Of a stretch of 64,000 bases of DNA, positions 45,213-62,521 are shown piece after piece; position 1 is the first letter of the stretch; each line of letters begins with the position of its first letter. The stretch is from the NCBI RefSeq assembly GCF_017908595.1, contig NZ_JAGKTL010000003.1, positions 186,001 to 250,000 of the forward strand. The letters are read 5' to 3'. Position numbers and translations under genes: made by a program. The notes under the pieces were generated by a model. It was given only the letters and a program-made list of their open reading frames with translations, searched no databases and was not told where the DNA came from. Source of the stretch: Rhodothermus bifroesti. Its GTDB lineage: Bacteria; Bacteroidota; Rhodothermia; Rhodothermales; Rhodothermaceae.

Positions 45213-45222
45213 TAGCACAAGC

Positions 45223-48200
45223 ATGATGTTCAAGCACTGCTGTGGTTTGGTGGCATGGTCTATTGCTTGGGTTTGGGCAGCGCATGCACAGCACTTGGAA
45301 CCGGTAACACCACCCCAGTGGCGTAGCCAAATCAGTGCTGAGCGCATGGGGCTGCACGATGCCAATCGCATCCGGACCATGTTTTACAACTTTGGCATGG
45401 TGGGCAACTTTGAGGTTAATCCCGATCTAAGCGTTTTCCACTCGGTTGAGGTGCCCAAAGGCATTGGACTGAATTATTCGGATGGCATTACCCCGTTTGT
45501 GCTTACGCGGGTAGCAAGGGCTTCGAATCCAAACGACTCGATTTATGTGATGCTCACGGGCTATCGGGAGCGACAGGCGGTCGACCCCTTTCACCCCGGG
45601 CGCCAACTCCGCTTTGAGCCTCGGCCAGGCTTTTTTGAACCAGATCCTATGATTAACCGAGGTCGCTCGATAGCAGTCTCGAACGATCCCCGTACCTGGC
45701 CAGGTGCTGTTGATGCTGCGGGCAATCCCCGCCAGGGTGTTTCGCCAGAGCAGTGCTGGTATGACAAAATCAATGATCCGGACGACCCCGGCTGGTGCGG
45801 CTCTTGGAATGGCTACTTTGGCAAACGCCCTAATGCCGATCAGGAGTCGTTTTTTGTGATGGACGATAATTTCTACGCCACCTTTGATTTTTACCCAGAT
45901 GCTCGGGACCAAACGCGGCGCGGTCTTGGCCTGCGGGTTGAAGTGCGTGGCTTTCAGTGGTCTAATCCCCAAGCCCAGAATGTCATCTTCTGGCACTACG
46001 ATATCATCAATGAAAGCACGACGGACTACCCGAACATGATCTTCGGGCTTTACATGGACTCGGGCGTAGGGGGCTCGCAGCTCTCATGCGACGGGGTCTA
46101 CGAAAGCGACGACGACAACGCGTTCTATAATACCGAGCTGGGATTGAACCTGGTCTATACGTGGGATAAAGGTGGCCATGGCGTCAGCCTGCGCTCCACC
46201 TGTGAACCTACAGGCTACGTGGGATATGCCTATCTGGAAACTCCTGGAAATCCCTTTGACGGTTTCGACAACGACGAAGATGGCATCACCGATGAACGCC
46301 GCGACAGCGGTCCAGGTCAGCGTATCGAAGGCCAAGAGGCCATTCGGGCTTATGTCATGCAGCATTACGACCTGGCACGGTTTGAGCGGGCTTATGGTCC
46401 ACTAGAAAACCGACCTGCGTATCTGGCAGGCGTTTGGTGGACGGGCGACGAAGACCTTGACTGGGTTTGTGAAGCACACGACACCGGTGCTGATGGCATT
46501 TTTGCAGATCCAGAGGAAGGCATCGAGCCAGATACGGGCGAGGGGGACTGCATCCCTACCGAGGGGGAGCCCAACTTTGACCGCACCGACATTACCGAAA
46601 GTGACCAGATCGGCCTGACTGGCTTTAAGATGAACCGCATTCGTCCCGGTACCGGCTCACCGGCTACGGAGACCGACAACATCGTCTTTTTCATGGATCA
46701 AAACGAATGGCCTAAGCGGCTCTATCAGCAGTTTACGCATCCTGACCCGGCTGTTCGTTTCGATCCTCCCCTAGTGCTGAACTACAACATCGGCTTTCTT
46801 TTTGCTTCTGGACCTTTTGCGCTTAAGGCCGGTCAGCGAGAACGGTTCAGCTTGGCGCTAGCTTACGGAGAAGACCTAATCGACCTGGAAAGCACCGTGC
46901 GTGTTGTCCAGTCGATCTACAATGCCAACTATCAGTTTGCTACTCCGCCTCCAGCGCCAACCGTTCAGGCTTATGCTGGCGATGGTTTCGTAACGCTCAT
47001 GTGGGACAATCGGGCCGAAACAGCTGTCGACCCGGTCACAGGTGAGCGCGACTTTGAAGGCTACCGGATCTACCGGGCCACCGATCCTAACTTTCTCGAT
47101 GCGCAGCTTATTCGGGATGCTCGGGGTGGGGGACCCGTGGGTAACGGACGGCCGATTGCCCAATTTGACTTGATTAATGGTATTCGGGGTTTTTCGGAGC
47201 TGGCGGTGCAGGGCGTGCAGTACTGGTTGGGCGAAGACAACGGCATTCGGCACGTTTGGACGGATTCAACAGTCATCAATGGTCAGCTCTACTACTACGC
47301 CGTAACCGCCTACGACCGGGGTGTGGGACCGCCGTTTAACTTTTATCCTTCCGAGAATGCCATTTCGGTCTCGCGCACGGTTCGCGGCGGTACGATCCTG
47401 CCACGTAATGTGGTGGCTGTAAGGCCTAATCCCCCGGTACCCGGATATATTCCAGGTGCGGTAGTCGAAGGGAGCTTGCGTCAGCTATCTGGCCGTGGCG
47501 TGGGTACAGTGCAGCTGCGCGTAGTGCACCCCGACCGCGTTCCCGAGGGGCATGTGTTTCGCTTGACGTTTGACGCCCCCACCGACAGCATTCGCGCCCA
47601 GTCTTATCGGTTGGTAGATGTTACCACAGGTGAAGTGCTGTTCGAGCATGGACGAGACCTTGAGGGGGCGGGCACGGGACCAGTTGGAGCTGGTCTGCTC
47701 CCAGTCATTCAGACAGCCCTCTGGCCTGAGGTCGATACACTGGCCAGCGGATTTACGGCTGAGAGCCAAACCCGTGTGCGCCTGCGGCCTTTGTATCAAA
47801 GGACGCGCTCCCCAAATCTGCGCCGACCTGGCTACCCAGAGGACCTGCTCATTGTGTTTGCCAACGAGCCGCTCGACACGTCACGCGCGGCCATTGGCAT
47901 GCCGGCTACGCCAGCGCACTTCAAGGTGATCACGGCCGACGGCAGGTGGCAGTTTGATTTTCGCTTTCGGGATGTAAACCGAGACCGCACGCTCAGCGCC
48001 GACGGAGAGTTTATCGAAGTGCTGCTGCCGGAGCGCGAAGGCGGCCCCTTGATCCCTACCTGGCGCATCTTCTACGATGCTGCGCGTACGCCTGCTGACG
48101 CTATGCCGCCCGGTCAAGGTGACGTGTATCGACTCCGCATGCGGCTGCCGCTAACGGCAGAAGACGTCTTCGAGTTTACCACCCAAGGGGCCTACGTGGA

Positions 48201-48540
48201 TGCTGCGCAGGCGCGCGATCAGCTTCGCGAGCAGGAGCCGTATGTTGTTCCCAATCCCTATGTAGCCGCTGCGGCTTTTGAACCTGAACGCTTTGCTGTA
48301 AGCGGACGCGGTGAGCGCCGTCTGGAATTTCGCAACATTCCGGCAGGTGCCACAATCCGGATTTACACTGTGCGTGGCGAGCTCGTGCAGACCCTCCATC
48401 ACGACGGCTCCAGCATCGGTATGGTGCCCTGGGATCTACGTACCAAAGACAATTTGGAAATCGCGCCGGGGCTTTACCTCTTCCACGTTGAAGCACCAGG
48501 TGTGGGCGAATACATTGGTAAGTTTGCTGTCATCAAATAG
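45223..48540 (+). CDS. Very large secreted T9SS protein with FN3 domain, 1105 aa
   Basis: Starting at the ATG at 45223 gives signal peptide MMFKHCCGLVAWSIAWVWAA. No enzyme motif is visible. Residues about 50-330 are beta-rich and aromatic. An acidic DxDxDG calcium-type loop occurs in FDGFDNDEDGITDERRDSG (near residue 350). An FN3-like domain follows near 590-720 (DFEGYRIYRATDPNFLDAQL). Near residues 865-965 comes a module shared with the glucanase at 49595 (GYPEDLLIVFANEPLDTSRA), and at the end a T9SS-type tail (RIYTVRGELVQTLHHDGSSI, GLYLFHVEAPGVGEYIGKFA). It sits where SusD would be, 10 bp after the receptor, and may be the surface glycan-binding partner. Function is not known. Confidence 0.75.
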   Translation: MMFKHCCGLVAWSIAWVWAAHAQHLEPVTPPQWRSQISAERMGLHDANRIRTMFYNFGMVGNFEVNPDLSVFHSVEVPKGIGLNYSDGITPFVLTRVARASNPNDSIYVMLTGYRERQAVDPFHPGRQLRFEPRPGFFEPDPMINRGRSIAVSNDPRTWPGAVDAAGNPRQGVSPEQCWYDKINDPDDPGWCGSWNGYFGKRPNADQESFFVMDDNFYATFDFYPDARDQTRRGLGLRVEVRGFQWSNPQAQNVIFWHYDIINESTTDYPNMIFGLYMDSGVGGSQLSCDGVYESDDDNAFYNTELGLNLVYTWDKGGHGVSLRSTCEPTGYVGYAYLETPGNPFDGFDNDEDGITDERRDSGPGQRIEGQEAIRAYVMQHYDLARFERAYGPLENRPAYLAGVWWTGDEDLDWVCEAHDTGADGIFADPEEGIEPDTGEGDCIPTEGEPNFDRTDITESDQIGLTGFKMNRIRPGTGSPATETDNIVFFMDQNEWPKRLYQQFTHPDPAVRFDPPLVLNYNIGFLFASGPFALKAGQRERFSLALAYGEDLIDLESTVRVVQSIYNANYQFATPPPAPTVQAYAGDGFVTLMWDNRAETAVDPVTGERDFEGYRIYRATDPNFLDAQLIRDARGGGPVGNGRPIAQFDLINGIRGFSELAVQGVQYWLGEDNGIRHVWTDSTVINGQLYYYAVTAYDRGVGPPFNFYPSENAISVSRTVRGGTILPRNVVAVRPNPPVPGYIPGAVVEGSLRQLSGRGVGTVQLRVVHPDRVPEGHVFRLTFDAPTDSIRAQSYRLVDVTTGEVLFEHGRDLEGAGTGPVGAGLLPVIQTALWPEVDTLASGFTAESQTRVRLRPLYQRTRSPNLRRPGYPEDLLIVFANEPLDTSRAAIGMPATPAHFKVITADGRWQFDFRFRDVNRDRTLSADGEFIEVLLPEREGGPLIPTWRIFYDAARTPADAMPPGQGDVYRLRMRLPLTAEDVFEFTTQGAYVDAAQARDQLREQEPYVVPNPYVAAAAFEPERFAVSGRGERRLEFRNIPAGATIRIYTVRGELVQTLHHDGSSIGMVPWDLRTKDNLEIAPGLYLFHVEAPGVGEYIGKFAVIK

Positions 48541-48560: not shown

Positions 48561-49568
48561 ATGAAGCGTGGCTATTGGATTGCTCTGGCAGGAGGGCTGA
48601 TGCTGAGCAGCTTGAGTGCCTTGGCGCAGACGAAAGTGGCTACCACGATCGGGCAAGTGCTTTTAATTGAGCCCAGTGCACGCGCGGCAGCTATGGGAAA
48701 CGCAGGTGTCACCGTAACGGTCGATGCCTTTGGTTTGTACTTTAATCCAGGACTCCCAGCTACGTTGGAACGCTCGGCCGTTGCCATAACCTATAGCCGC
48801 TGGTTGGCCGATTTGAACTACACGTATACAACAGCTTTGGTGCAGTTAGGGTCTAGTGCGCTTTCGCTGGCACTTACTACGCTAAACTCGGGCGAAATGG
48901 AGGTGCGCACGGTTGAGCAGCCGCTGGGTACGGGTGAGCGCTTCACGGTCGAGCAGCTGGTGTTGGGGTTGGGCTTCAGCCGCCGCTTGACGGACCGCTT
49001 TAGCGCAGGCGTGCAGGTTAAGTGGCTACACGAGACGATCTGGCATAGTAGCCTCTCAGCGTTGGCCTTGGATGTAGGCGTGTTTTACGAGCTGCCCTTT
49101 CGGGCTTATTTGGGCGCCAGCTTATCGAACTTCGGCACGCGGGGGCGTTATGATGGAAGGGATTTGCGTGTGCGCTACGATCAGGACCCCAATCGCCATG
49201 GAGACAATAGCAACCTGCCGGCCGCTTTGCACACCGAAAGCTACCAGCTCCCTATCCTGTTTCGGGTCGGGATGGGGTTGCCGCTCGAGCTTGGATCGGG
49301 GCAGCAGCTGCTGCTTGTTGCCGATGCATTTGAACCCAGTTTCAACACCGAAAGCATAAGCCTAGGTGCTGAATGGCAGTTGATGAACGTGTTGGCCTTG
49401 CGGGCGGGTTATCAAAATCTCTTTGAGCAGGATTCGGAGCTGGGATTAACCTTGGGTATGGGTCTGTCGTACGAAGTAGCGAAGCTGCGCTTTCAGTTTG
49501 ATTATGCCTGGGCTAGCCATGCCCATTTGAGCGCAATTCACCGGTTGAGTGCCAGCATTGCCTTTTGA
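48561..49568 (+). CDS. PorV/PorQ-family outer-membrane protein
   Basis: The 335-residue protein has signal peptide MKRGYWIALAGGLMLSSLSA and then the motif LIEPSARAAAMGNAGVTVTV with NPGLPATLERSAVAITYSRW, which mark the PorV/PorQ (LptO) family of FadL-like barrels. PorV delivers cargo from the T9SS translocon to the cell surface and to the sortase PorU. Its place among several T9SS cargoes suggests it handles these exported proteins. An alternative is a barrel that serves transport of the glucan itself. It ends shortly before the glucanase gene. Confidence 0.82.
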   Translation: MKRGYWIALAGGLMLSSLSALAQTKVATTIGQVLLIEPSARAAAMGNAGVTVTVDAFGLYFNPGLPATLERSAVAITYSRWLADLNYTYTTALVQLGSSALSLALTTLNSGEMEVRTVEQPLGTGERFTVEQLVLGLGFSRRLTDRFSAGVQVKWLHETIWHSSLSALALDVGVFYELPFRAYLGASLSNFGTRGRYDGRDLRVRYDQDPNRHGDNSNLPAALHTESYQLPILFRVGMGLPLELGSGQQLLLVADAFEPSFNTESISLGAEWQLMNVLALRAGYQNLFEQDSELGLTLGMGLSYEVAKLRFQFDYAWASHAHLSAIHRLSASIAF

Positions 49569-49594
49569 GCCTCATTAAATCACAAAGCGCGTCT

Positions 49595-52390
49595 ATGTGG
49601 CAATGGCTCGGCTTGCTGCTCGTATGGGGAGGACTGCTGCCCACTGCTTGGGCCCAACAGGCCACATGGACGCTGTGGGAAGGGACCGCAGGGGCAGCCT
49701 ATGAAGCTGCTTCAACGGGCAGTTTTTGGGGGGGCGACACCTTGGTCCTCAGCGGTCCTGGCAACCGATATTTGCCGCTGCGCACGCTTGCCGATGGACA
49801 AGCAGTAGCTCGGCTGGTCTTCCAGCATGTTGAAGGAGGATTTTGGCAGCTGGTCATGTATCAGCCTGAGCGCTTAAGCGACTTGCAAACGCCCGACACG
49901 CTTCGCTTGTGGCTCAACGCGCCAGCTGCACTGCCGGGCGTTTGGTTGCCTGAAATTGCCCTAATCGATCAAGAAGGCCATGCAACGGCTACAGTGGCGC
50001 TCAGGGCAGCTGCAGGGATAGGATGGAACGCGGTCCGTAGCGGCTGGCAGGCCGGTAGCCAGACAGACCTGGCGTTGTCGGTGCGCTACGTGTCGGCGCT
50101 TCCGGCTGAGTTGCCACGCTTAGGCTATCCTGAAGACCTTTGGATCACGTTTGCCGATGCTCCCCTCGATACCTCGCAGGCAGCTGTTGGCTTACCAGCC
50201 CATCCTGCCCGTTTTATGGTGCAAACCTTTTCCGGAACGCAGCTGCCGTTTCGATACCAGGAGCTCAATGGCGATCAGACGCTCAGCGCAGTGGGTGAAT
50301 ATTTCGAGGTGCTTACCCCAGAGCCAGAAACAGGTCGGCTGCGCCCTACGTGGCGTGTAGAAGTTATCCGCACCCCGTCCCGTCCCCCCAGCCTAGGTGA
50401 TCGCTACCTGCTGGCTGTAGATAACGACGGGATCGATAGCGATCCCAACAGCTGGCAAATTTTCCGGATTGCTTGGAGTGATTTTGGCCCCCTGGGTCGT
50501 TTTGATCCTGCTCGCGTAGCCGGCTTCCGCCTGCAAGCTGGTGCAAAGCCCACGTATGGGTTACGTGAGCTGTGGATCGGGCGGGTTGAAGCTGTTAGCC
50601 ATGATCTTGAAGGGACGCCACTGCCACCGCCCCAAGGCGTGCGTGCGGTGGCCGGCGATTCCAGTGTCGTACTTTATTGGGAGCCGGTAGCTGGTGCTGT
50701 GCGCTACCGTGTCTACCGCCAAGATGAGGAGGCGTTGCCTTTTCACTTGCTGGCCGAAGTCGTCCCACCCGAAGATTATGCCGACCTAGCGGTTCGTAAC
50801 GGCCAGACCTATACCTACGTGCTGCGCAGCGTGGATGCTCAGGGGCGCGTGAGCTCCGACAGCGCTCCAGTTCAGGCTACCCCTCAAGCCGGTCTGGAAG
50901 ATGCGTTTTTGGAGCTCGTGCAGCGCCGAGCATTTACCTACTTTTGGCAGGAGGCCAACCCGACCAATGGCCTTATCCGAGACCGAAGCCGTCCTGAAAG
51001 TCCAGCCAGCATTGCGGCCGTGGGTTTTGGGCTTTCGGCGTTGACCGTGGGCATTGATCGGGGTTGGATTTCTCGGGACCAGGGGCGCGGGCGGGTCCTG
51101 CGTACACTGGAGTTTTTCTGGAAGGCACCTCAGCATGCGGCTTCGAATGCAACGGGCTACCAGGGCTTTTTCTATCATTTTCTGGACATGCAAAGCGGGC
51201 AAAGGGCCTGGCAGTCTGAACTCTCTACGATCGACACAGCCCTACTCCTGGCTGGAGTGCTTCACGTGCGGCAGTACTTCGATGGTCAGGAGCCAGAAGA
51301 AGTCCGCATTCGTGCCTTGGCCGACTCGCTGTACCATCGCGTCCGTTGGCGCTGGTTTGCTCCCCGCATGCCGCTACTGGCACTGGGATGGACGCCGGAG
51401 AGCGGCTTTCTGCCTTATGACTGGACCGGATACAACGAGGCCATGATCCTTTATCTGCTGGCCCTTGGCGCTCCCGCAGATTCCTTACCGTCGGCAGCTT
51501 GGCAAGCTTGGACGCAAACCTACCGATGGGCTACGCACTACGGCTACAGTTTTGTGGAATTTCCACCCCTTTTTGGACACCAATACAGTCATGTATGGAT
51601 TGACTTTCGGGGCATTCAGGATGCCTACATGCGCCAAAAGGGCATCGATTACTTCGAGAACAGCCGTCGGGCTACGCTAGCCCAGCAGGCTTATCACCTG
51701 GCTAATCCTAACCGTTATCCGAACTACGGCGCTGACGAGTGGGGATTGACGGCTTCGGATGTGCCCGGAGGTTATCTAGCTCGAGGGGCACCACCGCCCC
51801 AGAACGACGAAGGTACCTTGGCCCCCACAGCCCCTGCCGGTTCAATTGTATTCACACCAGAAGCCTCCCTCTGGGCTTTGCGCACCATGTACCGCCGTTA
51901 CCGCAACCGCTTATGGGGGCCCTATGGTTTTCGGGATGCCTATAACGTGCAGCAAAACTGGTTTGCAACCGACTACCTAGGGATCGATCAGGGTCCAATA
52001 GTGCTCATGATCGAGAACTTGCGCACAGGTGCCATCTGGCGGCGCATGATGACGCACGAAGCCATTGTGCAAGGATTAGCACGGGCAGGTTTTCGTCCTG
52101 TATCTACATCCGCTGCTCCACTTGGCACCTGCGACCCCCAATCGCTCCGGTGTTTCCCTAATCCGTTTACACGGCGTCTCGAAGTGCAGTATGTTCTAGA
52201 AGGGGTAGCACGGGTTACCGTGTACGATGTGCTGGGACGTGTGGTGGCGGTTTATGCACCGCATTGGCAACCATCTGGTTTGCAGCACATGGTGCTAGAG
52301 GCTACGAGCTGGCCGGCAGGTCCCCTACTGCTTGAGCTGCGTGGGGACTCGATGCGAGCAAACTGTCTACTTATTCATCTCAAACCATAA
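49595..52390 (+). CDS. T9SS-exported PF10091 glucanase, likely endo-beta-1,2-glucanase (GH144-like)
   Basis: The ATG at 49595 gives 931 residues with signal MWQWLGLLLVWGGLLPTAWA. Residues about 165-275 repeat the module of the large upstream protein (LGYPEDLWITFADAPLDTSQ). An FN3 domain follows at about 335-425 (VRAVAGDSSVVLYWEPVAGA), then the PF10091 'glucoamylase-like' catalytic (alpha/alpha)6 domain at about 430-835 (RRAFTYFWQEANPTNGLIRD, SAALWTV-type helices, WTPESGFLPYDWTGYNEAMI, HVWIDFRGIQDAYMRQKGID). A T9SS tail ends it (RVTVYDVLGRVVAVYAPHWQ). GH144 endo-beta-1,2-glucanases belong to PF10091. The linkage is inferred from this and from the GH94 partner; the sequence alone does not prove it. 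Confidence 0.85.
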   Translation: MWQWLGLLLVWGGLLPTAWAQQATWTLWEGTAGAAYEAASTGSFWGGDTLVLSGPGNRYLPLRTLADGQAVARLVFQHVEGGFWQLVMYQPERLSDLQTPDTLRLWLNAPAALPGVWLPEIALIDQEGHATATVALRAAAGIGWNAVRSGWQAGSQTDLALSVRYVSALPAELPRLGYPEDLWITFADAPLDTSQAAVGLPAHPARFMVQTFSGTQLPFRYQELNGDQTLSAVGEYFEVLTPEPETGRLRPTWRVEVIRTPSRPPSLGDRYLLAVDNDGIDSDPNSWQIFRIAWSDFGPLGRFDPARVAGFRLQAGAKPTYGLRELWIGRVEAVSHDLEGTPLPPPQGVRAVAGDSSVVLYWEPVAGAVRYRVYRQDEEALPFHLLAEVVPPEDYADLAVRNGQTYTYVLRSVDAQGRVSSDSAPVQATPQAGLEDAFLELVQRRAFTYFWQEANPTNGLIRDRSRPESPASIAAVGFGLSALTVGIDRGWISRDQGRGRVLRTLEFFWKAPQHAASNATGYQGFFYHFLDMQSGQRAWQSELSTIDTALLLAGVLHVRQYFDGQEPEEVRIRALADSLYHRVRWRWFAPRMPLLALGWTPESGFLPYDWTGYNEAMILYLLALGAPADSLPSAAWQAWTQTYRWATHYGYSFVEFPPLFGHQYSHVWIDFRGIQDAYMRQKGIDYFENSRRATLAQQAYHLANPNRYPNYGADEWGLTASDVPGGYLARGAPPPQNDEGTLAPTAPAGSIVFTPEASLWALRTMYRRYRNRLWGPYGFRDAYNVQQNWFATDYLGIDQGPIVLMIENLRTGAIWRRMMTHEAIVQGLARAGFRPVSTSAAPLGTCDPQSLRCFPNPFTRRLEVQYVLEGVARVTVYDVLGRVVAVYAPHWQPSGLQHMVLEATSWPAGPLLLELRGDSMRANCLLIHLKP
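51614..51686 (+). repeat. 73-bp exact repeat, copy 1 (in the T9SS glucanase)
   Basis: Bases 51614-51686 are identical to 55495-55567 in the second glucanase gene. The segment encodes IQDAYMRQKGIDYFENSRRA followed by TLAQ. The flanking sequence 22 bp upstream has only a few third-position differences. Paralogues elsewhere differ clearly at the DNA level. Confidence 0.9.
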
Positions 52391-52402
52391 ATCTAATGAC
52401 CT

Positions 52403-54685
52403 ATGTTGCGCCTGTACCTGGTGCTCCTGCTTACGCTGATTGGCTTTACGACGGCTCGGGCCCAGTCGCTAGAAAAAGCCCGGGAAGATTCTCTGATCGA
52501 AGCGCTGCTGGCCCGCATGACGCTTGAAGAAAAACTTGGGCAGCTCACCCTCTACAATGGAGGGTTGGCGCAAACAGGACCGGTTGTGATGACTGCTGAT
52601 CCAGATGCTGTGCGTCGTGGGAGGGTTGGGGCTGTTATGAATCTTTTTGGTGCGGAAGCAACCTGTGCGCTGCAGCGGCAAGCTGTTGAGGAAAGCCGGC
52701 TAGGCATTCCCCTCCTGTTTGCGTTGGATGTAATTCATGGCTTTCGAACGATTTTTCCTGTACCCCTGGCCGAAGCAGCCACGTTCGATCCCCAGCTGGC
52801 TGAGCAAACTGCTCGTGTAGCCGCGCTTGAAGCTTCGGCGGCCGGGCTGCACTGGACGTTTGCCCCTATGGTCGACATTGCGCGGGATGCACGTTGGGGG
52901 CGCATTGTAGAAGGCAGTGGAGAGGATCCCTACTTAGGATCGCTCATGGCAGCTGCCCGCGTACGCGGCTTTCAGGGGAAGGATCTGCGCGAGCCCTCCA
53001 CCATTATGGCGTGTGCAAAGCACTTTGTAGCTTATGGTGGTGCCGAGGGCGGTCGAGACTACAATACGGTAGACCTCTCTGAGCGTACGCTTCGGGAGGT
53101 TTACCTGCCCCCGTTTGAAGCTGCTGTTCGGGCAGGGGCCCTTTCTGTGATGTCGGCCTTTAACGAGATTGGCGGCATCCCCGCTTCGGCCGATCGGCGG
53201 CTGTTGACCGATGTACTTCGGGGGGAGTGGGGTTTTGAAGGTCTGGTGGTGAGCGACTACACGGCTATCTGGGAATTGCTTTTTCATGGCATTGCGGCCG
53301 ACAGTGCCGAAGCAGGTCGTAAAGCGCTTGTCGCTGGGGTCGACATGGACATGGTTAGCGGCATTTACGTGCACAAGCTGGCCGAGGAGGTGCGGTCGGG
53401 TCGGCTACCAGAGGCAGTCGTGGATGAAGCGGTGCGACGCGTGCTTCGGGTGAAATACCGGCTGGGACTTTTTGAAGACCCCTACCGCTATTGCCGTGAT
53501 CCGGAGCGTGAGCGGCGGTTGTTGTTGGCCGCGGAGCATCGGCGTTTAGCCCGTGAAGTGGCTACAAAAGCCATCGTGCTGCTTAAGAATGAGGGCAACC
53601 TGCTGCCTTTGGCCGATACGCTACGTACGCTGGCCGTTATTGGCGCGCTGGCGACCGATTCAGCGAGTGTGCTGGGACCTTGGGCAGCAACGGGTCGGCC
53701 AGGCGAGGCCGTAACGATCCTTGAAGGCCTTCGGGCAGCTTTGCCCCAGACACGGGTACTCTATGCCCCGGGCTATCCTGAGGCGCCGCCAGGCGGTTTT
53801 CAGGAAATTGTTGCCACTGCTTTAAGCCCCGACACCAGTCGGTTTGCGGAAGCCGTGGCGGTAGCAGCGCAGGCCGATGTGGTCCTCTTAGTGCTCGGTG
53901 AGCACCGAGAGCTCAGCGGCGAGGCTGCCAGTCGGGCTTCGGTAGCGTTGCCTGGGGCTCAGGAAGCGCTGGCCCGACGCATCTTGGCGACAGGGAAGCC
54001 CGTGGTAGTGGTGCTCATGAACGGCCGGCCCTTGGCTATTCCTTATCTTGCCGAAGCTGCACCAGCCATTTTGGAAACCTGGTTTCTGGGCTCTGAGATG
54101 GGGAACGCTGTGGCAGATGTACTTTTGGGTCGGGCTAGCCCAGGTGGCCGCTTACCGGTATCGTTCCCACGGGCAACCGGTCAGGAACCCCTTTATTACA
54201 ACCATAAACCAACGGGTCGACCGCCGCGTGCAGAAGAAAAGTACACCTCAAAGTACCTCGACGTGCACTGGAGCCCGCTGTATCCTTTCGGATACGGCCT
54301 GACCTATACCACGTTCGCCTATCGAAATTTGCGCCTGAGCTCTAGCCGCTTAGGTTTGCAGGATACGTTGCGCCTTACCGTGGAAGTGACCAACACGGGA
54401 ACGCGGGCAGGAGAAGAGGTAGTGCAGCTCTACGTGCGCGACGAAGCCGCCTCGGTCACCCGTCCGGTGCGTGAGCTCAAAGGCTTTCAGCGCGTGGCAC
54501 TTGCACCGGGAGAAACAAAGACCGTGACTTTCGAGCTGCCCGTCGAAGCCCTGCGTTTTTGGGGCTTGGAAAATCGATGGGTGGTGGAACCTGGATGGTT
54601 TACGCTGCAAGTGGGACCTTCGTCGGCAGAAGGCCTCGAAGCCCGATTTGAGGTCTTGGCCCAAAGTACAATTCGATCAAGGTGA
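52403..54685 (+). CDS. Glycoside hydrolase family 3 beta-glucosidase
   Basis: The 760-residue periplasmic enzyme has signal peptide MLRLYLVLLLTLIGFTTARA. Its GH3 N-terminal barrel includes FALDVIHGFRTIFPVPLAEA, RDARWGRIVEGSGEDPYLGS and the nucleophile region EGLVVSDYTAIWEL (Asp285). The second domain (residues about 395-600) provides the acid/base glutamate in GEHRELSGEAASRASVALPG, and a C-terminal FN3-like domain ends at about 750 (EEVVQLYVRDEAASVTRPVR). It would release glucose from sophoro-oligosaccharides. It resembles BglX in layout. The next gene overlaps its stop by one base (TGATG). Confidence 0.94.
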   Translation: MLRLYLVLLLTLIGFTTARAQSLEKAREDSLIEALLARMTLEEKLGQLTLYNGGLAQTGPVVMTADPDAVRRGRVGAVMNLFGAEATCALQRQAVEESRLGIPLLFALDVIHGFRTIFPVPLAEAATFDPQLAEQTARVAALEASAAGLHWTFAPMVDIARDARWGRIVEGSGEDPYLGSLMAAARVRGFQGKDLREPSTIMACAKHFVAYGGAEGGRDYNTVDLSERTLREVYLPPFEAAVRAGALSVMSAFNEIGGIPASADRRLLTDVLRGEWGFEGLVVSDYTAIWELLFHGIAADSAEAGRKALVAGVDMDMVSGIYVHKLAEEVRSGRLPEAVVDEAVRRVLRVKYRLGLFEDPYRYCRDPERERRLLLAAEHRRLAREVATKAIVLLKNEGNLLPLADTLRTLAVIGALATDSASVLGPWAATGRPGEAVTILEGLRAALPQTRVLYAPGYPEAPPGGFQEIVATALSPDTSRFAEAVAVAAQADVVLLVLGEHRELSGEAASRASVALPGAQEALARRILATGKPVVVVLMNGRPLAIPYLAEAAPAILETWFLGSEMGNAVADVLLGRASPGGRLPVSFPRATGQEPLYYNHKPTGRPPRAEEKYTSKYLDVHWSPLYPFGYGLTYTTFAYRNLRLSSSRLGLQDTLRLTVEVTNTGTRAGEEVVQLYVRDEAASVTRPVRELKGFQRVALAPGETKTVTFELPVEALRFWGLENRWVVEPGWFTLQVGPSSAEGLEARFEVLAQSTIRSR

Positions 54686-56136
54686 TGAAAAGATTTCCAT
54701 GGGGATGGATTGGCGTCCTTTTGGTAGGGCTTGGGGGAATGGGTTGCAGGCTGGAGCATGACAGCCCGCAAGCTTCAGATGCGTTTTTAGATACGCTTCA
54801 GGCCCGTACGTTTGCGTTCTTTTGGGAAACCGCCCATCCGGAGACCGGACTGATTCCCGATCGCTGGCCGACGCCTTCGTTTTCAAGTATTGCCGCTGTC
54901 GGGTTCGGCCTGAGTGGTTATCTGGTAGGCGTAGAGCGCGGCTACATCACCCGCCAGCAAGCCGCCGAGCGCATCTATCGCACACTGCGCTTTTTATGGG
55001 AAGCACCCCAAGGTCCAGCTGCCTCCGGTACGGCTGGCTACAAGGGGTTTTTCTACCATTTTCTGGAGATGGATACCGGACACCGCTTCCGGGATGTCGA
55101 GCTTTCCTCGATCGATACCGCGTTGCTGATGGCCGGTGTGCTAGCTACGCAGGTTTACTTTGACGGCAGCGATACGCTGGAGGTGGCTATTCGGGCTTAT
55201 GCCGACTCACTTTTTCAGCGCGTAGAGTGGGATTGGATGCAGCCGCGGGCACCGCTCATTGCCATGGGTTGGTATCCAGAACGCGGTTATCACACGCACG
55301 ACTACACAGGCTACAGCGAGGCGATGCTGCTTTACGTGCTGGCGCTGGGCTCACCGACGTTTCCTGTAGCACCCCAAGCTTGGCAAGCCTGGACGCAGAC
55401 CTACCAGTGGGGGACGTTTTATGGACAGACGTTTGTGCAATACAGCCCACTTTTTACGCATCAGTATAGCCATGTATGGATTGATTTTCGAGGTATTCAG
55501 GATGCCTACATGCGCCAAAAGGGCATCGATTACTTCGAGAACAGCCGTCGGGCTACGCTAGCCCAGCGTGCTTACGCCATAGATAACCCAGGCCGCTGGC
55601 AAGGCTACGGTCCCGACCTATGGGGGCTAACCGCCTGCGACGGCCCGATAGATACCACGCTGGTGCTTAGTGGGCAGGAACGCACGTTTCGAAGCTATGC
55701 AGCGCGTGGCGCCAGTTTGGTTTACGTTCTGGACGATGGGACTCTTGCCCCTACAGCTGTAGGAGGTTCACTGCCCTTTACGCCCGAGCTAGCGCTGGCC
55801 GCGCTGCAAACCATGAAGGCACGCTATGGCGAAGCGCTGTGGGGACAATACGGCTTTCTGGACGCGTTTAACCCGACGTTTCAGGTGACCGATGTGCCCC
55901 TTAAGCATGGACGGGTCATTCCTGGCTTAGGTTGGTTCGATACCGATTATCTGGGAATCGACCAAGGCCCTATCTTGCTTATGGCAGAAAATTACCGAAG
56001 TGAATTGCTCTGGCGCCTGATGCGTCAGAGCCCTTACGTTGTACAAGGCCTACAGCGGGCTGGGTTTACCGGTGGTTGGCTCGAAGAGATAACCCTGCCT
56101 GAACTGCGCGTGGTCATTCACAACCGACAGGAATAA
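54685..56136 (+). CDS. Lipoprotein PF10091 glucanase, likely endo-beta-1,2-glucanase (GH144-like)
   Basis: The ATG at 54685 (a GTG one codon earlier is possible) gives 483 residues with a lipoprotein-type N-terminus (MKRFPWGWIGVLLVGLGGMG, then Cys). The rest is a single PF10091 domain: FLDTLQARTFAFFWETAHPE, YPERGYHTHDYTGYSEAMLL, SHVWIDFRGIQDAYMRQKGI and WFDTDYLGIDQGPILLMAEN. It lacks the FN3 and T9SS parts of its paralogue at 49595. It is probably tethered to a membrane and cuts imported glucan in the periplasm or at the surface. It shares a 73-bp identical DNA tract with that paralogue. Confidence 0.85.
   Translation: MKRFPWGWIGVLLVGLGGMGCRLEHDSPQASDAFLDTLQARTFAFFWETAHPETGLIPDRWPTPSFSSIAAVGFGLSGYLVGVERGYITRQQAAERIYRTLRFLWEAPQGPAASGTAGYKGFFYHFLEMDTGHRFRDVELSSIDTALLMAGVLATQVYFDGSDTLEVAIRAYADSLFQRVEWDWMQPRAPLIAMGWYPERGYHTHDYTGYSEAMLLYVLALGSPTFPVAPQAWQAWTQTYQWGTFYGQTFVQYSPLFTHQYSHVWIDFRGIQDAYMRQKGIDYFENSRRATLAQRAYAIDNPGRWQGYGPDLWGLTACDGPIDTTLVLSGQERTFRSYAARGASLVYVLDDGTLAPTAVGGSLPFTPELALAALQTMKARYGEALWGQYGFLDAFNPTFQVTDVPLKHGRVIPGLGWFDTDYLGIDQGPILLMAENYRSELLWRLMRQSPYVVQGLQRAGFTGGWLEEITLPELRVVIHNRQE
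55495..55567 (+). repeat. 73-bp exact repeat, copy 2 (in the lipoprotein glucanase)
   Basis: Identical to 51614-51686 in the T9SS-exported glucanase, in the same reading frame and same protein position. Confidence 0.9.
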
Positions 56137-56147
56137 CAAGCTGCGCT

Positions 56148-57440
56148 ATGGGCGATTGGCCCTATTCGCGTGCGGCATATTCCCAAGCGCCATTGGTGAG
56201 GGCGGTCGTCCTTTTTTGCCTAGCCGGAATAGCTGCTTGTCATGAACCGGAGCAGACCGTGCAGCTGACCTTTTGGGCTTTTGGCCGTGAAGGAGCACAG
56301 GTAGCTCCCCTGCTTGAATCCTTCGAAGCAGCGCATCCGGGCATCCAGGTCTCCCTCCAGCAAATCCCTTGGTCGGCAGCTTACGAAAAACTTGTCACGG
56401 CCTACGTTGGAGGACAACTGCCCGATGTGGCCCAGATAGGCAATAGCTGGCTGCCCCAGTTTGCAGCACTGCAGGCGTTGGTGGAGCTAACGCCGTGGGT
56501 TGTTCGGGATCGGCTGGATACAGCGGACTACTTTTCAGGCATCTGGGCAACCAACCGCTTACCCCAAGGGCTGTATGGTCTTCCTTGGTACGTAGACACG
56601 CGCGTCCTTTTTTATCGCACCGATTTACTGAAACAGGCTGGCTATGCCACCATGCCGCAAACCTGGGCTGGCTGGGAGCGCCTCTTGCACCGTTTGGTGG
56701 CACCTCCGGTCAATGCTCGCTTTGCGTTGGCATTGTTGCCGGATTGGTCTCCCGTAGTCATTCTGGGGTTGCAACAAGGCGCCACACTGCTGGGAGGCAA
56801 CGGGCGTTACGGCAACTTCCGGGATGAGCGCTTCCGACGTGCGCTGGCGTTTTATGTGCATCTGGTTGACGCACGTTTGGTCCCGCGCTCTGGTGCTACG
56901 CAGCTGGGCAACCTGTACCATGAGTTTGCTCGGGGACAACTGGCGATGTTTTGGAGTGGCCCTTGGAGTGTGGGAGAGTTGCGGGCGCGGTTGCCCGATT
57001 CACTGGCGCTGCGTTGGGCAACCGCGCCGCTACCTGGACCTGAGGGGCCGGGTGTTTCGTTGGCTGGTGGATCAAGCCTGGTCATTTTCCAAAATACCCG
57101 TAATCTAGAAGCGGCTTGGGCCTTGGTGCGGTTTTGGGCACAGCCAGAAGTGCAGCTGCAGTTTTATAGGCTAACTGGCAATCTGCCACCACGTCGCTCG
57201 GTGTGGCAGCAAGCAATCCTGCAGCGTGACCAGCAGCTTGAAGGTTTTTGGCAGCAGCTCGAGCGGATCGAGCCGTTGCCAGCTGTCCCAGAATGGGAAG
57301 CGATTGCAGCTCGCATTCATTACTACGCCGAAGCCACGGCAAGTGGTCTTTTGGGACTCGACGAAGCCCTAGCACGCCTGGATCAGGAGGTAGACCGGAT
57401 ACTGGAAAAAAGACGTCGGATAGCCACCGTACCGCGATGA
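56148..57440 (+). CDS. ABC transporter sugar-binding lipoprotein
   Basis: The 430-residue protein has a lipoprotein signal (LVRAVVLFCLAGIAAC, Cys28). It then shows the family 1 extracellular solute-binding pattern: QLTFWAFGREGAQVAPLLES, FEAAHPGIQVSLQQIPWSAA, GQLPDVAQIGNSWLPQFAAL and GQLAMFWSGPWSVGELRARL. The TonB/T9SS surface system upstream and permeases downstream place it in the periplasm as the receptor for oligosaccharides, probably sophoro-oligosaccharides as in the Listeria homologue. It precedes the first permease with an ATGA overlap. Confidence 0.92.
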   Translation: MGDWPYSRAAYSQAPLVRAVVLFCLAGIAACHEPEQTVQLTFWAFGREGAQVAPLLESFEAAHPGIQVSLQQIPWSAAYEKLVTAYVGGQLPDVAQIGNSWLPQFAALQALVELTPWVVRDRLDTADYFSGIWATNRLPQGLYGLPWYVDTRVLFYRTDLLKQAGYATMPQTWAGWERLLHRLVAPPVNARFALALLPDWSPVVILGLQQGATLLGGNGRYGNFRDERFRRALAFYVHLVDARLVPRSGATQLGNLYHEFARGQLAMFWSGPWSVGELRARLPDSLALRWATAPLPGPEGPGVSLAGGSSLVIFQNTRNLEAAWALVRFWAQPEVQLQFYRLTGNLPPRRSVWQQAILQRDQQLEGFWQQLERIEPLPAVPEWEAIAARIHYYAEATASGLLGLDEALARLDQEVDRILEKRRRIATVPR

Positions 57441-58315
57441 AGCGCTCCTGGACTGAGTTGCGAGCTGCTACTTGGTTTTTAGCCCCAGCGCTGGCGGTGG
57501 TGTTGCTTTTTTTGTTTTTGCCGGCTCTTGCTGCCTGGATGCTTAGCCTAACGGATTTTGATCTCTACACCTTTGCCGAGCCGGCAGCCCTTCGATGGGT
57601 AGGATTACGCAATTACCTGGCTTTGTTGCAAGACGGGCGCTTTTGGAAAGCACTGCAAAATACCCTGATTTTTGTGGGTCTGGGCGGACTGCTTACGCTC
57701 TGCTTAGCCCTTGGGGCTGCCTTGTGGATTCATCAACGATTTGTGCGTTGGAAAGCTTTCTGGCGTATGGTCTACTTTGCGCCTGTTGTGACTTCGCTAG
57801 TGGCTGTGGCTATCGTGTGGCGTTACCTCCTGCACGCGCGCTATGGCTTAGCAAATCAAGCGCTTGCTTGGTTAGGGCTGCCACCCATCGACTGGCTAGG
57901 GGATCCACAGTGGGCACTTCCCGCACTCATCTTGATGGCGGTGTGGAAAAACTACGGGTATGATTTGCTCATTTTTTTGGCTGCACTGCAGGCTATCCCT
58001 GAAGAGCTTTATGATGCTGCCCGAATGGACGGGGCCAGCGTGTGGCAACAGCTGCGCTACGTGACGCTGCCTGCCCTCCGTCCGATGATTGCCTTGGCTG
58101 GACTCATTACGGCCAATGGCTACCTGCAAGTTTTTGCCGAGCCGTACGTGATGACGCAGGGTGGTCCGCTAGACGCCACGCTAACGCTGGTGCTTTTGCT
58201 CTACGAGCAGGGTTTCCGGTGGTGGCGATTAGGCTATGCGGCTGCCTTGGCCTTCGTGCTGTTTGTCTTGATGCTCGGCCTTTCCTGGATGCTCTGGCGT
58301 CAACATAGGTCATGA
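57437..58315 (+). CDS. Sugar ABC transporter permease (MalF-like)
   Basis: The ATG at 57437 overlaps the binding-protein stop (ATGA). The 292-residue protein has six membrane helices and the coupling-helix motif EELYDAARMDGASVWQQLRY (EAA loop) followed by VTLPALRPMIALAGLI. The opening helix (FLAPALAVVLLFLFLPALAA) and GLRNYLALLQDGRFWKALQN are typical of MalF/UgpA-type sugar permeases. It pairs with the permease at 58312. No ABC ATPase gene is in the locus. Confidence 0.93.
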   Translation: MKRSWTELRAATWFLAPALAVVLLFLFLPALAAWMLSLTDFDLYTFAEPAALRWVGLRNYLALLQDGRFWKALQNTLIFVGLGGLLTLCLALGAALWIHQRFVRWKAFWRMVYFAPVVTSLVAVAIVWRYLLHARYGLANQALAWLGLPPIDWLGDPQWALPALILMAVWKNYGYDLLIFLAALQAIPEELYDAARMDGASVWQQLRYVTLPALRPMIALAGLITANGYLQVFAEPYVMTQGGPLDATLTLVLLLYEQGFRWWRLGYAAALAFVLFVLMLGLSWMLWRQHRS

Positions 58316-59145
58316 ATTACCGCTGGATACGCTTAGGCCATCACCTTCTGGGCTATGCGGGGCTCGTCCTGCTCGCTATGTGGACGCTGCTGCCCCTGGG
58401 ATGGATGGTTGCCGTTTCGCTTATGCCTTCTGGTGCAGCCAGCACCTCTCCGGTTCCCTTGTGGCCCGATACCCCTACACTGGTCCAGTACGCAACCCTT
58501 TTTGCCCACTTTCACATGGCCCGCTACTTGGCCAACAGCCTGCTCATTTCGGGAAGTATTACGCTAGGAGCCCTGTTGCTTAACGCCATGGCAGGCTATG
58601 CCTTTGCCGTGTTGCGTTTTCGTGGTAGGGAAGCGCTGCTGCGCTTGCTGCTTATGGCCTTACTCATTCCCATCCACATCACCATCTTGCCGCTTTTTTT
58701 GATGCTGCGGGCTATGGGGCTAATCAATTCGTACCTCGGCGTCATCCTGCCTAACCTGGCCAGCGTGCTGGGCATTTTCTTGATGTATCAGTTTATGCGC
58801 ACCTTACCGTTGAGCCTAATTGAAGCTGCGCGAATGGATGGCGCTTCAGAGTTTCAAATCTTCTGGCGCGTGGCCTTGCCGCTTAGCCGTCCCATGCTGG
58901 CGTCGGTTGGGATGCTTACGTTTTTGGGGGCTTGGAATGACTTTCTGTGGCCATTGGTAGTGCTGACGCAGCACACGCACTACACGTTGCCGGTTGCATT
59001 AGCCAACTTAGCGGGCGAGCACGTGCAAGACGTCGAGCTGATGATGGCTGGGTCGGTTGTCACCATCCTGCCAGTCCTGTTGTTGTTTCTGGGGTTGCAG
59101 CGGTTTTATCTCCCTGTACTGCTTCGGAGTGGTCTAGCCGGATAA
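58312..59145 (+). CDS. Sugar ABC transporter permease (MalG-like)
   Basis: The 277-residue protein has six membrane helices and the EAA loop LSLIEAARMDGASEFQIFWR with VALPLSRPMLASVGMLTFLG, plus the MalG/UgpE-type AWNDFLWPLVVLTQHTHYTL. Its ATGA start overlaps the preceding permease stop. It would complete the transmembrane channel and needs an external ATPase of the MsmK/UgpC type. The GH94 gene begins 5 bp after its stop. Confidence 0.93.
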   Translation: MNYRWIRLGHHLLGYAGLVLLAMWTLLPLGWMVAVSLMPSGAASTSPVPLWPDTPTLVQYATLFAHFHMARYLANSLLISGSITLGALLLNAMAGYAFAVLRFRGREALLRLLLMALLIPIHITILPLFLMLRAMGLINSYLGVILPNLASVLGIFLMYQFMRTLPLSLIEAARMDGASEFQIFWRVALPLSRPMLASVGMLTFLGAWNDFLWPLVVLTQHTHYTLPVALANLAGEHVQDVELMMAGSVVTILPVLLLFLGLQRFYLPVLLRSGLAG

Positions 59146-59149
59146 ACCC

Positions 59150-62100
59150 ATGTTGTTTGCTTTACCTCAGTGGCTTGATGAGGCCAATTGGATCAACCGC
59201 AGCGGTTGGCTGCTCCGTCAAGGAAAGCTTTGGAGCTTTTTGGGTGATGATGGCGGGGGTGGTCTAGGCTGGGAACAAATGCTGCTCACGCGCTGGCATC
59301 CAGATCCGGCTGCGCCAGAAGTAGGGTATTTTTTCTACATACGGGATTTGGAAACGAGGCGGTACTGGTCGGCCGGATTGCGTCCAAGCGGCTGGCAGCC
59401 GGAAACGTACACCCTCTACCAAGGACCAGAATGCTGGCGGCTGGTGCGTCAGGATGGGGGCCTTGAGCTTATGCTGGAGGTGTGGCTGTGCGAAATGATG
59501 GAAGTGCGGCGGCTGCGGCTCATCAACCACACCAGCTGCACCCGCCACCTTGAAGTGACCAGCTATGCCGAGCCTGTACTGGCCGATCCTTACGTTGACG
59601 CATGTCACCCTGCGTTTGGGAAGCTTTTTATGCAGACGGCCGCCCTTCCTGATGGACTGGCAGTTTGGCGCCGCGCGCGCAGTCCTGAAGAGCCCAGTAG
59701 GACGCTGGTCCATTTAATCTACGGTCACGAGGGCAAACTAACCTGGGAGACCGATCGACGGCGTTTTTTAGGACGCGGGCACACACTAAGGATACCGGAG
59801 GCGCTCTCAGGACCGTTTCGGCTGAGCGAAACTACCGGCAATGTGCTTGATCCGATTTTGTGTTTACGCACCCAGATCGTGCTTAGGCCTCAAGGCAGCA
59901 AAGAATTACATTTTGGCATGGGCATGCTTGAAGATCACTATGCACTGCCCGTACACCTTGAGCAGTTCCGCTGCAGCCTAACGCAGCTTGGCCCGTCGCG
60001 CAAAGGACAACGCCGTAAAATTTTTGCTGCAGTGCAGCATTTTCGGTCCGCTCCTTATCGAAGCGCAACACCGGAAGGCGTCGGGCCGCTTCCAACAGCG
60101 CCGCTGGTTTACGACAACGGCTGGGGGGGATTTACAGAGACGGGCGATGCATACGTGGTGCGCTTAAGGCCTAAGACTGAGGGCACCCTAGCGCTGCCAC
60201 CAATGCCCTGGGTGAATGTGGTGGCTAACGAACAGGCGGGTTTCATCGTGACCGAGCGGGGGGGAGGCTACACCTGGACGCGAAATAGCCGGACAAATCG
60301 GCTGACGCCTTGGTACAACGATCCAGTGGCTGACCCTTGCGGCGAAGCATTGTATCTGCGCGACGAGGTGGTAGGCGTCTATTGGTCACCACTTCCGGCA
60401 CCGGCTCCTGTCGCAGCACCGTATGAGGTAACGCATGGCATGGGCTACACCCGCTTTCGGCATCACAGCCAAGCACTAGCGCAGGAAGTTTGCTGCTTTG
60501 TGCCCCGAGGCGCTCCTGTTAAGCTGATTTGCCTGCGCCTGCACAATCAAAGCCTGCAGCCACGCCTGCTTTCGGTTTTTTATGTAGCCCGTTGGGTGTT
60601 GGGCGAAACGCTGAGCGATCGCGCCGGCATACGCACCCGCTACTCCCCGACGAATCGGATGATCCTGGCGGAAAAAGAAGGCCGTCCAGTAGCATTTATG
60701 GCTTGCGCTGCCCCAGAAGCAGCTGCTGTGTGGGCTAGCGGCGACGGCCGCAGCTTTTTTGGTGCTGCAGGTCGACCTGAAGCGCCAGAAGCGCTGACGC
60801 ACCACAGGCATCTTAAGGCTCGTTTTGGAGACAGCCTAGATCCCTGCGCAGCCCTGCAGGTGCAGTTGTCCTTGAGCCCAGGAGCGCAGGCCGAGGTCAT
60901 CTTTTTGCTAGGTGAAGCCGTAAGCCAAGCCGAGGCTGGACGTTTAGCTCAGGCCTACAGCCAACCGGAGCAAGTTGCGCAGGCTTTAGCGGAAGTGCAG
61001 CAGTTCTGGGCAGAACTCCGTGGGCATCTCCAGGTGCAAACCCCTTGTGCAGCGCTCAATCTGATGGCCAATGGCTGGCTACTGTATCAAACCGTCAGTT
61101 GTCGGCTTTGGGCGCGTTCTTCGTACTATCAGGCCGGCGGTGCGTTTGGCTTTCGGGACCAGCTGCAAGATGCTGCCGCCTTGGTGTATGTACGCCCGGA
61201 TTGGACGCGACAGCAGCTTTTGCTGCATGCAGCCCATCAATTCCCCGAGGGCGACGTGCTGCACTGGTGGCATCCCGAAGGCCTAGGCGTGCGCACCCTA
61301 TTTTCAGATGACCGGCTCTGGCTTCCCTATCTTGCACTGCACTACCTGCAAGTAACCGGCGATGAAGCACTGCTGGAGGTGCCTGTGCCGTTCGTGCAAG
61401 GACCGCTGCTGCCGCCAGGAGTAACCGAGCAGATCGTGCACCCAACAGCAGGGCCGGTTGCGTCATTTTTTGAGCACTGCCTGCGAGCTATTGATTGCTC
61501 CTTAGAAACAGGCCCGCACGGCCTGCCCCTTATGGGTAGCGGCGACTGGAATGACGGCATGAGCCGCATAGGCATCGAAGGGCGTGGCGAAAGCGTCTGG
61601 TTAGGATTTTTGCTCTATGCTGTGCTGGATGGATTTATTCCCTTGTGTAAGCAACGGGGTGAACAGGAGCGGGCAGCTCGCTACCAGGTTCATCGCGAGC
61701 AGCTCCGGCAGGCTTTGGAGGCGGCTGGGTGGGATGGCGCCTGGTACCGGAGGGCCTACTTTGACGATGGAACCCCGCTAGGCACTCGGGAAGGACCAGC
61801 TTGCCAAATTGATGCCCTGGTTCAGGCATGGGCAGTACTCTCGGGGGTAGCTTCACGCGAACGCGCACAGCAGGCATTTGCCGCTGTAGAAACCTATCTG
61901 ATCGATCCTGCTGCGCGACTTGTGCGGCTACTGACCCCACCTTTTGAGGATATGCACCCACATCCAGGCTACATCCAGGGATACATCCCCGGCGTTCGCG
62001 AAAACGGTGGCCAGTATACCCACGCTGCCTTGTGGGTTGTGCAGGCACTGGCCCGGATGGGACAGCTGGATCGGGCGACCGAGCTGCTGACGTGGATTAG

Positions 62101-62521
62101 CCCCGTAACGCGGACAAAAACACCCGACGACCTCGGGTGCTACCAAGTAGAACCCTATGTTTTAGCAGCCGACATTTATGCCGAACCGCCGCACACAGGA
62201 CGTGGCGGCTGGACCTGGTATACTGGATCGGCGGGCTGGATGTACCGCGTGCTCCTTGAAGAGATCATCGGCTTTGGCATCGAGGCAGGTCGCTGGCTGA
62301 CGTTGCGCCTAAGCTGGCCCAAGGCATGGCCAGGCTATCGGCTCACCTATCGGCACCCCCAAAGTAACACAGAATACCACATCGAGGCCCGTCGCGAAGG
62401 CACACAACCCCACGTCTGGCTGGATGGCCAAGCTTTGCGTTTTGCGTCAACCCACGTGCGGATTCCCCTAGTTCAGGATGGCGCTAGCCACCATGTAGTG
62501 CTTACCCTTCCTGTGATCTAA
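59150..62521 (+). CDS. GH94 phosphorylase, probable 1,2-beta-oligoglucan phosphorylase
   Basis: The 1,123-residue protein has no signal peptide, so it is cytoplasmic. It shows the GH94 layout: an N-terminal beta-sandwich region (residues about 1-590), a helical linker and a catalytic (alpha/alpha)6 domain with AGGAFGFRDQLQDAAALVYV and GSGDWNDGMSRIGIEGRGES (catalytic Asp in the DWND block near 799-802). Blocks such as EVTSYAEPVLADPYVDACHP, TWETDRRRFLGRGHTLR and NSRTNRLTPWYNDPVADPCG match the C-terminal half of cyclic beta-1,2-glucan synthase. Cellobiose phosphorylases are about 800 residues; 1,2-beta-oligoglucan phosphorylases are about 1,110, as here. Product would be glucose 1-phosphate. It ends the operon. 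Confidence 0.9.
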   Translation: MLFALPQWLDEANWINRSGWLLRQGKLWSFLGDDGGGGLGWEQMLLTRWHPDPAAPEVGYFFYIRDLETRRYWSAGLRPSGWQPETYTLYQGPECWRLVRQDGGLELMLEVWLCEMMEVRRLRLINHTSCTRHLEVTSYAEPVLADPYVDACHPAFGKLFMQTAALPDGLAVWRRARSPEEPSRTLVHLIYGHEGKLTWETDRRRFLGRGHTLRIPEALSGPFRLSETTGNVLDPILCLRTQIVLRPQGSKELHFGMGMLEDHYALPVHLEQFRCSLTQLGPSRKGQRRKIFAAVQHFRSAPYRSATPEGVGPLPTAPLVYDNGWGGFTETGDAYVVRLRPKTEGTLALPPMPWVNVVANEQAGFIVTERGGGYTWTRNSRTNRLTPWYNDPVADPCGEALYLRDEVVGVYWSPLPAPAPVAAPYEVTHGMGYTRFRHHSQALAQEVCCFVPRGAPVKLICLRLHNQSLQPRLLSVFYVARWVLGETLSDRAGIRTRYSPTNRMILAEKEGRPVAFMACAAPEAAAVWASGDGRSFFGAAGRPEAPEALTHHRHLKARFGDSLDPCAALQVQLSLSPGAQAEVIFLLGEAVSQAEAGRLAQAYSQPEQVAQALAEVQQFWAELRGHLQVQTPCAALNLMANGWLLYQTVSCRLWARSSYYQAGGAFGFRDQLQDAAALVYVRPDWTRQQLLLHAAHQFPEGDVLHWWHPEGLGVRTLFSDDRLWLPYLALHYLQVTGDEALLEVPVPFVQGPLLPPGVTEQIVHPTAGPVASFFEHCLRAIDCSLETGPHGLPLMGSGDWNDGMSRIGIEGRGESVWLGFLLYAVLDGFIPLCKQRGEQERAARYQVHREQLRQALEAAGWDGAWYRRAYFDDGTPLGTREGPACQIDALVQAWAVLSGVASRERAQQAFAAVETYLIDPAARLVRLLTPPFEDMHPHPGYIQGYIPGVRENGGQYTHAALWVVQALARMGQLDRATELLTWISPVTRTKTPDDLGCYQVEPYVLAADIYAEPPHTGRGGWTWYTGSAGWMYRVLLEEIIGFGIEAGRWLTLRLSWPKAWPGYRLTYRHPQSNTEYHIEARREGTQPHVWLDGQALRFASTHVRIPLVQDGASHHVVLTLPVI

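Follow-up and report, generated by a model that had tools for sequence, protein, structure and literature searches.

How do two glucanase genes that diverged long ago come to share, within one genome, a run of 24 codons without a single difference, silent positions included? The question is raised by genes A and B of Rhodothermus bifroesti (G000, the own genome), and is answered here from the window (the whole 64-kb stretch of DNA that was analysed) and from related genomes, among them one of the same genus (G001). What the data show is a local and recent sameness, inside a single genome, of genes whose divergence is ancient. We regard it as very probable that a single, recent interlocus gene conversion produced the tract in the lineage of G000, once this had split from G001.

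The glucanase locus and the identical tract

The features of the locus are collected in Table 1. Both proteins match the PF10091 'Glycoamylase' domain, and for both genes the PDB entry that matches best is XcSGL (XCC2207; PDB ID: 8XUL), with E=1.4e-171 for gene B and E=1.6e-120 for gene A. By these matches the two are classed as GH144-type (clan GH-S) beta-1,2-glucanases. When the gene B protein was used as a query against the own genome, genes A and B were the only matches at E<=0.001. The GH94 protein has cyclic beta-1,2-glucan synthases as its best PDB matches, and the gene content suggests a locus for beta-1,2-glucan utilisation. Part of the N-terminal extension of gene A (residues ~155-284) resembles a stretch at window positions 47734-48138, in the ORF lying two genes upstream (52% identity over ~130 residues), and a similar match is present in G001.

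Table 1. Features of the glucanase locus, in positions of the window.
Feature	Position	Strand	Remarks
TonB-dependent receptor			upstream of gene A
PorV-family protein			upstream of gene A
ORF	45169-48540		upstream of gene A; without family match
Gene A	49565..52390	+	941 aa; PF10091 match at residues 617-831; GH144-like region from ~residue 446; N-terminal extension of roughly 440 residues
Second, weaker patch, gene A	51497..51523	+	AWQAWTQTY; A and B vary together within G000 and within G001
Near-identical shoulder, gene A	51590..51613	+	21/24 against 55471-55494
Identical tract, gene A copy	51614..51686	+	residues 684-707 plus one base
Inverted repeat GGGCTA-CGC-TAGCCC, copy A	51669..51683	+	perfect; stops 3 nt short of the 3' end of the tract
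GH3 glycosidase gene	52403..54685	+	between genes A and B
Gene B	54682..56136	+	484 aa; GH144/PF10091
Second, weaker patch, gene B	55378..55404	+	AWQAWTQTY
Near-identical shoulder, gene B	55471..55494	+
Identical tract, gene B copy	55495..55567	+	residues 272-295 plus one base
Inverted repeat GGGCTA-CGC-TAGCCC, copy B	55550..55564	+
Sugar-type ABC transporter (solute-binding protein, two permeases)	56148-59145		downstream of gene B
GH94 protein	59150-62521		PF06165 and PF17167; downstream

The 73-bp identity described in the initial annotation is exact: the copies agree at 73/73 nt with a spacing of 3881, third positions included, and at 94/97 when the shoulder is counted (51590-51686). The tract consists of 24 whole codons and one base, and the peptide it encodes is IQDAYMRQKGIDYFENSRRATLAQ; the initial annotation had placed the coded segment correctly but ended its peptide four residues short. 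All 24 residues are the same in genes A and B, and among codons for a shared residue that could differ silently, 23/23 are identical in the tract and 68/211 outside it. These counts, together with the 21/24 of the shoulder, bear out the divergence that had been described on both sides beyond a short near-identical stretch. Over their whole alignment (419 aligned codons) the genes have 61% nucleotide and 61% residue identity. No other direct repeat of at least 40 nt was found in the window (22-nt seed), and a 101-nt query covering 51590-51690 matched the own genome only at the A and B copies at E<=0.001 (7 of the 14 first-look candidates having been scored). The idea of a genome-wide repeat or signal was rejected, since both the tract and the inverted repeat match the own genome at these two places alone.

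Chance, constraint and the comparison with relatives

One alternative is that chance, helped by strong protein constraint, made the copies identical, which would accord with the sameness of all 24 residues. With codon usage taken from ten ORFs of the window, however, only 9.3 of the 23 codons are expected to be identical in the tract, and the probability of all 23 is 2.2e-10. Outside the tract the same calculation predicts 72.2/202 and 66 are observed, so the synonymous sites of the pair are saturated there. (The denominators outside the tract, 211, 202, 194, 193 and 192, differ because alignments and excluded margins vary.) The longest identical runs in three null models, with 20,000 draws each, were 35, 44 and 50 nt, none attaining 73. 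Where codons were redrawn synonymously with the protein alignment held fixed, 0/20,000 draws reached 73 nt (maximum 44), which refutes this explanation and upholds the earlier argument that constraint on the protein cannot account for the codons of the tract. The probability left to chance and constraint is practically nil.

Within the genus, 2 of 7 genomes carry the genes, namely G000 and G001. The other five (G002-G006) have no match to the gene B protein at E<=0.001, and their matches to gene A are weak and partial, so the glucan locus seems patchy across the genus. At the level of the order, 25/114 genomes give one match or more at E<=1e-60. The G001 locus has the same gene order as that of G000, with ~70-74% DNA identity in the pieces that align; the comparison thus draws on one congeneric genome with both genes and on one strain of the own species. 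The early comparison of orthologue codons used 26 rows, the later comparisons, the tree and the folding 35 rows, and the three-way codon counts four rows, while the counts for A/B pairs come from 12 genomes or contigs with near-complete A and B. Left out of the 35 rows were G026 (two copies), G035, G014 (one TGA inside), G056, G059 and G075, further copies in G036, G060, G061 and G062, the truncated second copies of G010, G021 and G007, and 34 of 38 additional loci (L031, L034, L051 and L063 were kept).

In the protein tree built from them, a 100/100 branch divides the 14 rows of A from the 21 of B, with the A protein of G000 next to that of G001 and the B protein of G000 next to its G001 counterpart, which places the duplication much earlier than the genus. 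The 24 tract codons show a different relation: between G000 and G001 the orthologues agree at 62/72 nt for A and 62/72 for B, while the paralogues within G000 agree at 72/72. This is the outcome of the check on orthologous loci that the initial annotation had called for. Each G001 orthologue departs from the tract at 10/72 nt, a Gln-to-Ala codon included. Neither of the two findings named beforehand as fatal to conversion was made, the tract codons not being the same in all orthologues (10/72 nt differ in each G001 copy) and synonymous identity not being high throughout A and B (68/211 outside the tract). Given the separate A and B groups and the differing G001 orthologues, the pattern is one of sameness within one genome and not of codon conservation.

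Some conservation of silent sites is nevertheless present. Codons identical three ways make up 14/23 in the tract vs 53/192 outside (p=0.0018), a mild effect in the genus by which part of the tract identity is baseline. The G000 pair, at 23/23, still stands above the level that the tract reaches between G000 and G001 (15/22, p=0.0038). Its synonymous excess in the tract over the rest of the gene, +0.68, is the highest of 595 row pairs, the next being +0.37, and cross-genome pairs average +0.04 (301 orthologue pairs) and +0.05 (282 paralogue pairs), with standard deviations of 0.12-0.13. This excess supports the proposal, already made from the window alone, that gene conversion between the copies is the simplest cause.

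Probable conversion between the copies and its extent

Selection on the nucleotide sequence itself, through codon choice or RNA or DNA structure, could in principle keep the copies identical without exchange. The mild conservation of tract codons in the genus would fit this, as would the folding of the tract, which is stable against dinucleotide shuffles (z -4.71 for B, -2.77 for A) and synonymous redraws (z -4.09 for B, -2.93 for A, compared with a mean of -0.23 and sd of 1.08 over 263 windows drawn from genes A, B and GH3). Part of this folding is due to the perfect inverted repeat. The stable fold is missing, however, from G001, whose two copies have z -0.69 and -0.13; apart from the two of G000, all rows (33) stay at or above a synonymous-redraw z of -1.9, and the codons differ in orthologues. 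The inverted repeat is likewise restricted: the pattern GGGCTANNNTAGCCC has two matches in the own genome (2.88 Mb), the A and B copies, and the repeat has no match in G001, either gene copy included. We therefore consider such selection a quite improbable explanation. A conserved RNA element was rejected as well, the stable fold being found in the two G000 rows alone of 35 and Rfam giving no match at the gathering threshold over 49500-56500. As the copies share their fold through conversion, it counts as one observation among 263 windows, and it may be due to chance. The lowest synonymous-redraw z of all 263 windows, -4.19, belongs to a window in gene A (50837-50929).

An artefact of assembly or polishing, by which one sequence was copied onto the other, might be suspected in a genome assembled in 8 contigs. 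Both copies are nevertheless in frame and lie within diverged flanks on one 497-kb contig, and ordinary short reads are longer than a 73-nt tract, which also counts against it. The probability of such an artefact is very slight.

Two features by which interlocus conversion is recognised are present, namely synonymous identity with diverged flanks, and a duplication that predates the species split with paralogues that are closer to each other in the tract. The process would be an interlocus (ectopic) conversion, the partners being two GH144 paralogues that are oriented in tandem. One copy would have suffered a break or gap and been repaired with the other, ~3.9 kb off and oriented alike, as the template. 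The two would have paired by homology within the block in which they code for the same protein, an identity that also keeps local A/B DNA identity high. Some 73-100 bp would have been copied without crossover; a crossover between direct repeats would delete or duplicate the GH3 gene. We infer break repair, a dependence on RecA and a non-crossover outcome. One point against conversion is the overall identity of A and B, just 61%: a review places conversion mainly above 80% identity, while noting that it can occur below (PMC3924818). The converted stretch may be patchy and extend to ~100 bp. As to the direction of copying, the signals are evenly split: within the tract, two codons side with G001 gene B only and two with G001 gene A only; in the shoulder of the G000 gene A, CAT GTA and CGG match G001 gene B, and GAC and GGC match G001 gene A.

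For the protein, the consequences are probably minor, since the congener, too, conserves the greater part of the block in both of its paralogues. The initial annotation had suggested that an active-site segment could be homogenised. XcSGL and CpSGL are GH144 endo-beta-1,2-glucanases. According to PMC12102758, the defining residues of XcSGL are the conserved acid E239 together with F286 and Y367, and the most plausible base is the residue matching CpSGL E142. Both A and B keep counterparts of the three XcSGL residues: E213, F258 and Y339 in B, and E625, F670 and Y737 in A (an offset of 14 for XcSGL, counted by hand from the printed alignment, is consistent for all three; positions in gene A derive from the A/B alignment). 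Candidate counterparts of the base, assigned by eye from the CpSGL alignment, are D145 in B and D557 in A. Gene A differs from the two characterised enzymes in its N-terminal extension, and A and B are known here from sequence. The counterpart of F286 precedes the tract by 14 residues, and in the linear sequence the tract contains neither the general acid nor the candidate base nor the two clan-defining pocket residues. With the mappable GH144 catalytic and pocket residues so placed, homogenisation of the active site is not supported.

Possible repeated exchange in the genus

A further reading, compatible with a single conversion and extending it, is that the patch is a hotspot at which A and B were repeatedly homogenised within the genus, as a partial concerted evolution, the event in G000 being the latest. 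The A/B pair of G001 gives some reason to consider it. The two copies are identical at 67/72 nt in the tract (window rank 4/294), and their degenerate codons agree at 18/23 in the tract vs 82/187 outside (p=0.0016). The one variable residue of the tract (A 51635-51637, B 55516-55518) is Gln in both G000 copies and Ala in both G001 copies, and of the four residue sites in the domain with this within-genome pattern, three fall in the tract or in the second patch. In the G000/G001 quartet, the maximal within-genome segment covers B residue indices 250-269, the tract being at 244-267. The same data also argue the other way, as the 18/23 of G001 is not distinguishable from the cross-genome level of the tract (15/22, p=0.33), and codons shared by the G001 pair alone are no more common in the tract (4/23) than outside (39/192, p=0.72). 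The four within-genome residue sites are hardly more than the three in the chance class, and orthology sites number 82. Within the tract, the quartet has seven within-genome sites and none of orthology (Fisher p=2.2e-6 for all positions, 0.011 for third positions), an excess that follows largely from A being equal to B in G000. As this equality precludes orthology sites in the tract, the count is not evidence for both lineages, and conversion in both was rejected as its explanation, the three-way codon counts being without an excess in G001.

Among eight further A/B pairs tested, enrichment in the tract was found in G012 alone, at 19/19 vs 143/195 (p=0.004) or vs 139/192 (p=0.003). It was discounted as conversion on account of 94-95% third-position GC and similarly high cross-genome tract values. 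By counts alone, G060 has 11/14 in the tract vs 117/165 outside, and L051 8/14 vs 74/165. In the other quartets the tract holds 14 orthology, 3 cross and 1 within-genome site (G008/G022), 13 orthology and 3 cross (G008/G032), 23 orthology (G022/G032), 13 orthology and 1 cross (G036/G060), and 2 orthology and 3 cross (G025/G034). Elsewhere in the gene, the G025/G034 quartet has 9 within-genome sites vs 1 orthology site at B residue indices 184-208 (permutation p=0.02), which is maybe a conversion patch in another family, and the G008/G022 quartet has a weak within-genome segment at indices 93-98 (p=0.048).

The second, weaker patch reads AWEVWTSTY and AWEAWTSTY in the two G001 copies. Its six consecutive within-genome nucleotide sites are spread over four codons, two of them with a changed residue, and it is possibly an older exchange. 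Recurrent conversion in the genus is thus possible judging from the aligned copies, and we put forward the hotspot tentatively, as doubtful but with some substance. More speculative still, and rather unlikely, is that the protein-conserved block acts as a self-sustaining island of homology. Both enzymes retain nearly the same 24-residue segment, so the block would stay pairable; it would be repeatedly overwritten in this genus, carrying linked changes (Gln/Gln vs Ala/Ala) between paralogues that are otherwise saturated, and the 3' hairpin could be a break-prone initiator.

That paralogues in bacteria undergo gene conversion is well established (PMC5485169, PMC6053082, PMC3924818). For tufA/tufB, as for A and B, a block is copied non-reciprocally between two copies in one genome, with tracts shortened by mismatch repair (PMC5485169). 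The two tuf genes are almost identical and separated by 762 kb, whereas A and B share ~61% identity, are oriented alike at a distance of 3.9 kb, and are clearly homogenised in one short block. In PMC6053082, paralogues are closer within a genome than orthologues are across genomes, at synonymous sites too, as in the A/B tract; homogenisation there is full-length, with partial-gene cases named as a future question, whereas just 24 codons are clearly affected here. Among the matches listed, the literature on conversion in Rhodothermus, on Rhodothermus GH144 and on conversion between glycoside hydrolase paralogues contains no report of this A/B pair.

The tract is a clean, ordinary case of gene conversion, a fresh instance of a known process and no new system. 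It provides a clear natural example of conversion over a very short stretch, between bacterial paralogues whose overall identity is lower than is usual for exchange, and a congeneric reference genome with the same synteny is available for it. Such patches can mimic codon constraint or the coevolution of residues, and they can mislead trees built from short alignments.
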